Under the pieces are notes generated by a model. It did not search any database, was not told the origin of the DNA, and worked only from the letters and a program-made list of their open reading frames with translations. 64,000 nucleotides of DNA from Aequorivita iocasae (GTDB lineage: Bacteria; Bacteroidota; Bacteroidia; Flavobacteriales; Flavobacteriaceae), in assembly GCF_016757735.1 (NCBI RefSeq), contig NZ_CP068439.1, positions 2,108,001 through 2,172,000 on the forward strand, in the 5' to 3' direction. The position numbers were made by a program, and so were the translations under genes. Below are positions 51,989 through 53,685 of this stretch, one piece after another. How positions within the stretch are numbered: the stretch's first letter is position 1; each line of letters begins with the position of its first letter.

Positions 51989-52044
51989 AGCGAAAAGCGA
52001 AAAGCGAAAAGCGAAAAGCGAAAAGCGAAGAGCGAAGAGCGACG
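51989..52044. repeat. AGCGAAA heptamer array upstream of the ABC operon
   Basis: Eight units of 7 nt: five AGCGAAA, two AGCGAAG and one AGCGACG. It sits between the ABC operon start and the second accessory patch. Confidence 0.88.
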
Positions 52045-52137
52045 AGGGATGTGGAAATTATTTAAGATGAAAAAGTCATGTCTTATTTGCTTCTTAAGTT
52101 GTTTTTTAACTTAGTTCTTTGTTAGCGGTTCATTGTT

Positions 52138-52530
52138 TTATACGGTTGGTACATGTTCAATTGTAACTTCATTTTCAACTTTGTCAAAATAAACACAGGT
52201 CATTTTTTCAAGATTTACTATCCATTTCTCAATTCCTGTTTCAGCGCTATGTTTACAAAATGTAAAATAGTCTGTTTCTCCTTTTTGGTGGATTTTCAAA
52301 TATTCTTCAAATTTTTGCTTATCAGTATAATCTGCTATATCCAATTCTTCATATTTCGGTTTAGATTTCGTCCGAAAATTGTTCTTTCCAAAATATTCAG
52401 TATGGCTGTCCGACACCCAAGTTTCAAATGCCGTTACTCCGATTTGCTTGATTTCCTCAATATACTTTGGAAATTCCGCCCCTGATTTGATTTTACTGTG
52501 GGCTAATTCAATTTGTTCTACTGTAAACAT
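52138..52530 (-). CDS. DUF1398-family protein (cassette-like context)
   Basis: The ATG at 52530 gives 130 residues starting MFTVEQIELAHSKIKSGAEF, the expected start for DUF1398 proteins (E. coli YbcV-like). WVSDSHTEYFGKNNFR and YLKIHQKGETDYFTFCKHSA are the other clear motifs. A TTG at 52587 could extend it by 19 residues into the boundary element. Function unknown. It is flanked by GTTAGCGGTT at 52121 and CCGCCAACG at 52581, as a cassette would be. AT-rich. Confidence 0.8.
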   Translation of the reverse strand: MFTVEQIELAHSKIKSGAEFPKYIEEIKQIGVTAFETWVSDSHTEYFGKNNFRTKSKPKYEELDIADYTDKQKFEEYLKIHQKGETDYFTFCKHSAETGIEKWIVNLEKMTCVYFDKVENEVTIEHVPTV

Positions 52531-52580
52531 TATTTCCTTTTCTTTAATGTTATTCTTTTCCGTTTCGTTGATTTCAATGA

Positions 52581-52712
52581 CCGCCAACGCTCAGGCTAAG
52601 AAACGTAGGGCTTTCGAAGCGATTAGCTGTCCACCGAAACCAAAGTTTGTTTAATGAACGAACCTTTCTGAAAGCCTTGTCCGCTCTATGTCTTCTTAGC
52701 TATTGTTGGCAG
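52581..52712. repeat. Long imperfect inverted repeat, attC-like
   Basis: GCCAAC at 52583-52588 and GTTGGC at 52705-52710 are the ends of a ~130-bp imperfect palindrome. The left arm (GCTAAGAA, GGCTTTC, CCAAAGTTTG) recurs in order in the reverse complement of the right arm. The last codons of the downstream-strand gene at 52696 lie inside the right end. Core bases GTTRGCRGT differ from the canonical integron core GTTRRRY. Confidence 0.75.
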
Positions 52713-53189
52713 TATGTGCTTTTATTTCTTTTTTATTATTTGTTTTCAAAGACTGTCCAAACAGAAAACTTAGTCCTATCAAAATTGGAAGTGCTAGCCA
52801 AGCCGTAAACACTAATTCAATTCCATTTTGTCCGTCCGATACATAGCAAAGAGTTTCTCGACTCGTGAAGAATAGTGCTAAACTGGCTTGAATGAAAGTG
52901 TATTCAATTAGATTAAAGAAAGTCAGTCGAGTTGTTAAATTCTCAAGTTTCTTTTCTGTTAAAGTTGGTAAATGTCGATAGAAGATAATGGGTAGTGCTA
53001 GTCCACCAATAATTGTAATTGACCAAGAACTGTCCAAGCATTATGGCAATCAAGTCCAAAAGAAGAAAGTAGCATTTGAAAACCAAGAAGCCCAATCGCA
53101 GTAAAACCCGGTATAAAAAATCCAACTGCTGAAAAAATCAGAGTCGGCTTTAATAAGTTAGGTTTTCTATGTTTCAATTCTGCCTGCAT
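52696..53189 (-). pseudogene. Small four-helix membrane protein, frameshifted
   Basis: Two overlapping minus-strand frames together give one plausible protein. The first starts MQAELKHRKPNLLKPT at 53189 and has one or two helices, then reads into a stop at 52998. The second frame covers 53037-52696, with SITIIGGLALPIIFYRHL, NLIEYTFIQASLALFF and AWLALPILIGLSFLFG. A single-base indel at about 53000-53040 would join them into about 150 residues with four membrane helices. Either a true pseudogene, a sequencing error, or two real overlapping genes. The gene fits between attC-like elements at both ends. Family not recognised. Confidence 0.65.
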
Positions 53190-53213
53190 TTTTTCTAGGT
53201 CATTTTTGCATTA

Positions 53214-53272
53214 CTGCCAACTTGTTCATATCCCCAACTCTATTGGGTTTATACCGCTAATATAGTTGGCTA
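53214..53272. repeat. Second attC-like element with GCCAAC/GTTGGC cores
   Basis: TGCCAACT (from 53215) and AGTTGGCT (to 53271) bracket about 43 bp with inner pairs CCCAA/TTGGG and others. It lies just upstream of the frameshifted membrane gene and carries the same core as the 52581 element. Confidence 0.65.
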
Positions 53273-53433
53273 TACCCAAGTTCTAGTATTTTTATGTGGT
53301 GTATTTCCCAAATATACAAATTTACCCTTTCCAAACCCTTCAATATACGTTCAGCAACCATATAATTCCTAAACCCCGCTAGATACCATTCAATCCTTCC
53401 CGTTTGGGTCTTGAAACCATGTGTTAGGGTTCA

Positions 53434-53637
53434 GAACCCTTCCGTATAGGTACACCAACCCTAACGGATGTGTGTAGAACCCTAACGGATACGTCCCACA
53501 ATCCTAACGGATACGTCCGACACCCTAACGTATGTATATAGAACCCTAACGGATACGTCCCACAACCCTAACGGATGTATGTAGAACCCTAACGGATACG
53601 TCCCACAACCCTAGCGCATGTATGTAGAACCCTAATC
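53434..53637. repeat. 21/22-bp tandem repeat array before the PPIase gene
   Basis: Eight units of 21 or 22 bp start with ACCCTAACGGAT or a close variant (from 53458), each followed by either ACGTCCCACA or GTATGTAGA-type ends, alternating in part. A degraded unit precedes at about 53434 and a partial one follows. Lengths run 21, 22, 21, 21, 22, 21, 22, 21. No unique spacers, so it is not a CRISPR. The rest of 53273-53434 shows nothing I recognise. Confidence 0.88.
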
Positions 53638-53685
53638 GCTCATTCCTCATCGCTAGTCGCTAGTAATTCTTTCTTCCTATTTCCT

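Follow-up and report, generated by a model that had tools for sequence, protein, structure and literature searches.

The core consensus of classical attC sites is GTTRRRY/RYYYAAC, and these sites mark the strand by extrahelical bases. The described systems closest to the one treated here are the chromosomal integrons and the CALINs. In the parts of the two sources available to us Bacteroidota are listed among the integron-bearing phyla (PMC8618304), and one complete Bacteroidetes integron is named with IntegronFinder 2.0, that of Salinibacter ruber M1, where earlier there was only In0 (PMC9024848). A subgroup of integron-like tyrosine recombinases has also been described (Smyshlyaev et al., 2021; PMC8138268); the available part of that paper describes neither cassette arrays nor sites for the insertion-less members.

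The window, a stretch of 64,000 nucleotides from Aequorivita iocasae, holds a locus of a system which would work like an integron without IntI, and in which we infer recombination. Like chromosomal integrons and CALINs the system has integrase-headed arrays of codirectional, mostly single-gene cassettes and an attI-like head. The sites are imperfect palindromes with GTT/AAC ends and a predicted bottom-strand bias, the units have their edges at GTT boxes, and clusters without integrase are found elsewhere. Unlike in chromosomal integrons the presumed enzyme is a Bacteroidota recombinase which lacks the IntI-specific domain, carries an extra N-terminal domain and is encoded in the same direction as its array. 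The sites differ from attC in a variable box of 10 paired bases in place of GTTRRRY/RYYYAAC, and in conserved A.C mismatches on the top strand (G.T on the bottom) where classical sites have extrahelical bases. Thus neither of the two marks by which an IntI integron is recognized, the IntI-specific domain and the GTTRRRY core, is present. The system was met in Bacteroidota; the only loci surveyed outside the phylum, 17 in number, gave no match to R1, our covariance model of the sites.

The locus in the window

In minus-strand order the platform consists of a promoter-like stretch, site C, a membrane gene, site B, a DUF1398 gene, site A and a remnant (Table 1). The platform is flanked by genes for a peptidyl-prolyl isomerase (plus strand, from about 53718) and an ABC transporter (minus strand, 51927-51031), both identified from the ORFs by eye. 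Short CCCTAACGGATACGTCCCACAA-based repeats (53433-53662) fill part of the gap from the platform to the isomerase gene, and the congener G207 has them too; an AGCGAAA tandem repeat (51989-52044) adjoins the terminal remnant.

Table 1. Features of the platform, in positions of the window
Feature	Position	Strand	Basis
Promoter-like stretch TAAATTTG/TATATTTG	53309..53324	-	sequence; directly 5' of anchor
Site C, attI-like anchor: 59-bp palindrome with GTT at end	53214..53272	-	fold and congener recurrence
Cassette 1: small membrane-protein gene and attC-like hairpin	52588..53220	-	boxes GTTGGCAGTAA (start) and ATACTGCCAAC (end)
Site B, attC-like site of cassette 1: 138-nt imperfect palindrome	52578..52715	-	R1 57.5 bits (a training-set score, site B being among the 55 training sites); fold
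Cassette 2: DUF1398 gene (52530-52138)	52121..52587	-	boxes GTTGGCGGTCA (start) and GAACCGCTAAC (end)
Site A: terminal end box (52131-52121, GTTAGCGGTT at 52121) and conserved 3' remnant (AAC AAAGAACTAAGTTAAAAAACAACTTAAG)	52093..52131	-	congeners

The promoter-like stretch, which is of the Bacteroidota -7 type (TAnnTTTG), is kept with small changes before the anchor in nine occupied congener loci, and in L201. Site C folds with z-scores of -2.8 and -3.0 on its two strands, and 4 and 1 of 200 shuffles fold equally well. Its palindrome, at 94-96% identity, precedes differing sequences in three congeners (L193, L196, L197). The junction in site C is presumed to be G|TT at 53221/53220. The start and end boxes of cassette 1 pair by eye over 10 bases. 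Site B as single-stranded DNA gives z-scores of -2.2 and -2.4, a fold which 3 of 200 shuffles match on either strand; a 74% identical site is present at another place in the same genome. Searched against phage records site B gave nothing at E 0.01, and against plasmid records one weak match, in Persicobacter.

The boxes of cassette 2 pair at five of seven variable positions. Its gene belongs to Pfam PF07166 (E 2.5e-36) and has homologues, in which only the gene is similar, at other places in G202, G201 and G219; the similarity runs from query position 226-238 (window 52125-52137) to 631-660 (52530-52559). The remnant at site A recurs behind other cassettes in L193 and L194 and as a variant in L195, while L197 is cut by the contig end. 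The number of cores alone is within chance, as GTTRGCGGT occurs twice in the window where 0.65 is expected, and 14 of 100 shuffles reach two.

The sequence-only reading had placed three sites at 52121, 52581-52712 and 53214-53272, with two small minus-strand genes between them. The sites are there, the middle palindrome having an extent of 52578-52715, but they are not equivalent: C is an anchor, B is attC-like, and A is a terminal remnant in which a shuffle fold test found no hairpin beyond chance (z -0.27). One of the genes is the DUF1398 gene; the membrane gene is not intact and looks frame-broken, since its two overlapping ORFs (53189-52998 and 53037-52696) sit in different frames.

Arrays headed by a tyrosine recombinase

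The best match of the IntI model in the genome of A. iocasae is a protein of 378 aa (C1:2096928-2098061), about 62 kb from the platform in the window. Its gene leads directly into an array: a palindromic head, GTTGTGCGTCA, an ORF, GAACGCACAAC with a hairpin (142 nt), GTTGTAACACA, another ORF and CGTGTTACAAC. Among 48 integrase loci (L037-L084) 43 had the integrase ORF by motif and two were duplicates, which left 41 regions. These contain 339 exact inverted 10-mers between cassette start and cassette end, against a mean of 88.3 in shuffled sequence (113 at the top of 20), and 258 of the pairs are followed by A on the start side and by G (in reverse reading) on the end side. The first exact pair lies 26-150 bp past the integrase stop in 24 of the regions, and any match at all is found in 36. 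Under a strict rule 23 of the 41 regions have their first cassette no more than 200 bp past the integrase stop, judged by position only. The longest ORF of the 246 strict cassettes lies on the array strand in 230 and on the opposite strand in 11, and is absent from five. The median distances are 26.5 nt from the beginning of the start box to the ORF start, and 15 nt from the ORF stop to the far edge of the end box. The GTT of the boxes is fixed by the search rule, but the second R position of GTTRRRY is T in 130 cassettes, G in 72 and C in 44, so the classical core is disobeyed.

The strict rule was also applied to 79 of 80 independently fetched loci (L106 runs off), and gave 71 cassettes downstream of the integrase (362,351 bp; 30 of the 79 loci) against 4 (+) or 6 (-) in the 1.7 times larger amount of upstream DNA (611,789 bp). 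The genomes with such cassettes belong to, among others, Winogradskyella, Seonamhaeicola, Rufibacter, Arundinibacter, Algoriphagus, Lutibacter and Cyclobacterium. Of 23 integrase arrays only 6 have TAnnTTTG, the -7 type promoter consensus, in the 75 bp ahead of their first cassette; the motif precedes 7 of 223 internal cassettes in this way, and 253 of 5000 random windows contain it.

In a congener sequenced as one contig (G205) about 72 sites (73 matches, one site being split by a stretch border) lie in one direction with a 387-aa integrase ahead. Within C1:1587120-1657506 of this genome (L294-L297) a cassette of ~392 bp, which has no long forward-frame ORF, starts at 26 places in tandem and dispersed; in ungapped comparison with one of the copies, 16 of the 26 (this copy included) reach 95% identity or more. 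An exact end box was sought for this cassette and none was found.

Identical cassettes (100%) are found at separate array positions, with lengths of 435, 403, 306 (x3), 319 (x2), 312 (x2) and 525 bp. Near-identity is seen among three cassette copies of about 438 bp, again at separate positions (96.1-99.8%), and a cassette of 851 bp is shared by two genera at 90.8%. When 10 duplicate pairs were walked, the identity set in at the GTT or as much as some eight bases ahead of it; in seven pairs its 3' edge fell within the next GTT box, which follows the hairpin, and the walk failed in three. The end of an IS3-type element, by eye the same in two genera, lies a few bases past the GTT box of a cassette site (L002:1640-2890 in the A. 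iocasae genome, and L008 near 1480); the insertion sequence might target the site or ride it.

Covariation, pairing and strand

The covariance model R1 was built from 55 sites using the inner pairs only. The 52 training sites from other genomes had been picked by the strict start/end rule, and non-training cassettes are therefore counted separately. In R1 91.5% of the cells are paired against 70.9% in shuffled alignments, and the covariation is 0.462 against 0.111 when shuffled (0 of 500 reach it) and 0.05-0.08 when slid; 12 of 17 pairs have changed on both sides, a measure which 12 of 500 shuffles also reach. The model gave 243 matches in 20 loci of the family, all on the integrase strand and all downstream, the latter largely by construction as these stretches hold mostly downstream DNA. 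In the 80 independently fetched loci (up to 10 kb either side) there were 89 matches in 26 loci; every one shares the strand of the integrase, and 87 lie downstream of it.

A cassette's own start and own end agree at six or more of seven positions in 189 of 206 cassettes, whereas the other half of the same hairpin agrees in 7 and random starts in 6.7 of 206. For the non-training cassettes the numbers are 163 of 180 for the own end and 7 of 180 for the neighbour half. In the independent loci 48 of 58 agree and 10 disagree, with one agreement for the neighbour. In G205 the agreement is 56 of 56; 11 of the 56 junctions agree there as well, because one cassette occurs in many repeats. This pairing of own start with own end indicates that the travelling unit is the start box, the gene, the end box and the hairpin, and that neighbours are joined at GTT. 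It is the pattern that would be expected of cassettes passing through circles.

Three A.C mismatches on the top strand are conserved in the 52 aligned sites (52/52, 35/52 and 49/52), and on the bottom strand they become T.G wobbles. For 134 of 141 sites the bottom-strand hairpin is predicted to be the more stable one, with means of -20.7 kcal/mol for the bottom and -18.1 kcal/mol for the top; in a control 300 bp upstream the same is found for 39 of 141. Such a difference in stability could let the enzyme choose the bottom strand, as integrons do, with a different mark.

The recombinase and its N-terminal domain

Searched over 199 genomes of the family the IntI model gives weak matches, many of them split and omitting about positions 182-238, and none exceeds the curated cut-off (TIGR02249). 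The 378-aa integrase has the domains Phage_int_SAM_4 and Phage_integrase. Its score of 192.4 bits is below the IntI cut-off of 265 and also below the XerA equivalog cut-off of 220. XerA and the archaeal Xer proteins (NF040815; PDB 5hxy, 4a8e) are nevertheless the best-scoring family and fold for the recombinase core; they differ from it by the extra N-terminal domain and the cassette arrays found here. The nearest solved structures are XerA and IntI4, the structure used in the fold search being that of a 53% identical relative (L085). The alignment to IntI4 is in two pieces with the middle part missing, hence there is no IntI-specific domain. Six positions, R-K-H-R-H-Y, are invariant in 28 aligned integrases, and we take their roles to be catalytic. 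In a tree the Bacteroidota array integrases, all except L109, form one clade (97/92), and IntI1 and XerC stand outside it, both on long branches; the tree has 57 of 59 rows, as XerD was not extracted and a Legionella row lacked the motif, so that XerC is present and XerD absent.

Two relatives may be mentioned. On a plasmid of Chryseobacterium sp. SNU WT5 (L277, NZ_CP041688.1) an integrase of the family stands ahead of small genes, of which the leading ones are codirectional with it; a group II intron lies among these genes. In a Deltaproteobacteria MAG (L119) a related integrase is followed by a palindrome with a ATAAACAAGTT end, like the anchors of Bacteroidota; downstream of this integrase there were no strict cassettes and no R1 match.

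Residues 1 to ~70 of the integrase are predicted to form a small alpha/beta domain (mean pLDDT of the model 80.2). A profile of the domain compared with solved structures finds the HARP domain of SMARCAL1 (PDB 4o66) with E 0.00079, the next match being at 0.52. Of the 39 N-terminal segments 37 were covered by the alignment; 4 of these match Pfam HARP (PF07443; best 7.1e-6) and 33 do not, while 10 match DUF5710 (best 5.8e-5), the first member matching nothing. Foldseek with the predicted domain gave XPB as its best match (E 0.17), and VIA-align gave a maximum Z of 6.2; 4o66 was absent from the rows of both. Because the fold searches gave no clear match it is sequence comparison which carries the HARP idea, and the domain is possibly HARP-like. 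HARP domains fused to other SNF2 proteins confer annealing helicase activity (PMC4035279, in the part available to us); here, different from SMARCAL1, the domain is fused to a tyrosine recombinase. We hypothesize that it stands in for the IntI-specific domain in gripping the hairpin. By eye the domain appears doubled in the integrases of L094, L104 and L134.

The same locus in congeners

Some portion of the locus query is matched by 27 of the 28 genomes of the genus, A. iocasae counted. Twenty congener loci were fetched, and part of them were classed from the anchors only: eight are empty, with neither anchor nor cassettes (L186-L192, L204), nine have the anchor and cassette-like DNA with a different first box in each (L193-L199, L202, L203), and three hold other DNA (L185, L200, L201). 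The platform itself is thus gained or lost within the genus. With the window included, the 10 occupied loci have 10 distinct first boxes, two of them with an altered GTT, and there are two types of anchor behind the same promoter stretch. Start and end boxes match exactly in L193 (1), L194 (3) and L197 (1), and at 9 of 10 positions in L199 (1) and L203 (2); in L195, L196, L198 and L202 our script found no matched end for the first box.

R1 sites are present in all 28 genomes, 2-83 apiece. The A. iocasae integrase used as a query (E up to 1e-60) has a match in 19 of the 28: 14 have a full-length close homologue, one of them with a stop, and five have partial or distant matches only, which leaves nine without a match at this E-value. 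As all 28 genomes have sites and 14 a full-length integrase, many site clusters would be without an integrase or served by another subfamily. Copies of the integrase with internal stop codons are seen in L219 (G223), L216 (G202) and L224 (G027), and these genomes still have cassette sites. There is no integrase at the platform in the window, and we infer from this that the integrase 62 kb away would act on it in trans.

The proposed mechanism and its alternatives

The model which we consider very probable is that the locus in the window is an integron-like cassette platform. It postulates that a cassette is a circle, usually with one promoterless gene and a ~140-nt imperfect palindrome, and that the hairpin is formed by the bottom strand of this palindrome. 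The linked tyrosine recombinase would insert the circle at the attI-like anchor behind a putative promoter, with the joint at CG|TT. The circles would be the intermediates, single-stranded DNA the substrate, the anchor the point of insertion and the linked recombinase the catalyst of cassette movement. Read from the sequences are the anatomy of arrays and integrases, the covarying hairpins, the predicted strand bias and the pairing of own start with own end, and also the duplicates which diverge at GTT boxes and the differing content of one orthologous locus.

The cassettes might instead belong to ordinary IntI integrons or CALINs with divergent attC sites, a classical IntI moving them in trans. 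The overall anatomy resembles that of integrons, IntI4 is among the nearest solved structures, and by eye the integrase and IntI1 have a C-terminal SPLD stretch in common. This explanation is nonetheless unlikely in view of the 199 family genomes without an IntI above the cut-off, the low and two-piece IntI match of the array-linked recombinase and the cores which disobey GTTRRRY. A shade less probable still is that the sites are real recombination sites with another catalyst, XerC/XerD or a single-strand transposase of the IS200/IS605 type. The genome does encode XerD (over the cut-off) and an XerC-like protein, and IS200/IS605 transposition likewise uses hairpins, but it is a distinct recombinase which stands at the array heads in fixed orientation.

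A reading without any recombination, in which the palindromes would act between small genes as transcription terminators or be REP-like repeats, we hold to be scarcely credible. The palindromes do lie directly 3' of stop codons and their hairpins fold. Against this reading, the own-start/own-end pairing spans the gene, duplicates diverge at the GTT boxes, an orthologous site holds different cassettes, arrays run in one direction behind a recombinase, and no Rfam family is over its gathering score in the three sources scanned (the window, L053 and L047).

A wider form of the cassette model has in our judgment an even chance. It would make the system a phylum-wide means of gene capture in Bacteroidota, a sister of integrons or an independent solution. 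A HARP-like fork- or hairpin-binding domain would replace the IntI-specific domain, the bottom-strand sites would be marked by G.T wobbles, and a private 10-bp box would pair fully only in the circle and so favour insertion over excision.

Spread, cargo and significance

With R1 (E up to 1e-5) sites were found in 108 of 296 Bacteroidota genomes and in 62 of 140 genera; 10 candidates per genome were scored in this search and 115 in that of the genus. The sequence-only reading had taken such elements to occur in many Bacteroidota, and this agrees with the count. Its proposal of an integron-like cassette build with non-canonical cores is borne out by the pairing of own boxes, the duplicate edges at GTT boxes and the second R position, and the recombinase it expected is linked to the arrays. 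The two checks it suggested were carried out: the covariance model found sites in every genus genome and in more than a third of those of the phylum, and congeners have other cassettes, or none, at the orthologous locus. It had named absence of recurrence with different cargo, or a mere terminator or REP function, as evidence against itself; what was seen is recurrence with different cassettes. It should be noted that its word "undescribed" is to be taken within limits. We did not find a description of the system in the literature searched, which includes the available parts of PMC8138268, PMC8618304, PMC9668308 and PMC9024848; subscription journals and bioRxiv were outside the scope, and a description may be in print.

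The cargo scan comprised 100 of 227 ORFs of at least 80 aa plus three from A. iocasae. These 103 proteins gave 60 Pfam families at E 1e-5, three with two members and the rest with one. PADLOC found type IIG restriction, AbiLi, AbiGi and PD-T4-1 among others, with one member each.

Surveys of integrons seek IntI and canonical attC, while sites of the present kind are carried by many Bacteroidota genomes, with about 72 in a single array. If the mechanism holds it would account for much of the accessory gene content of a major phylum, including restriction, abortive infection and many unknown genes. The IntI-specific domain would then be dispensable for integron-like capture, and the recombinase would represent a second architecture for folded single-stranded DNA.
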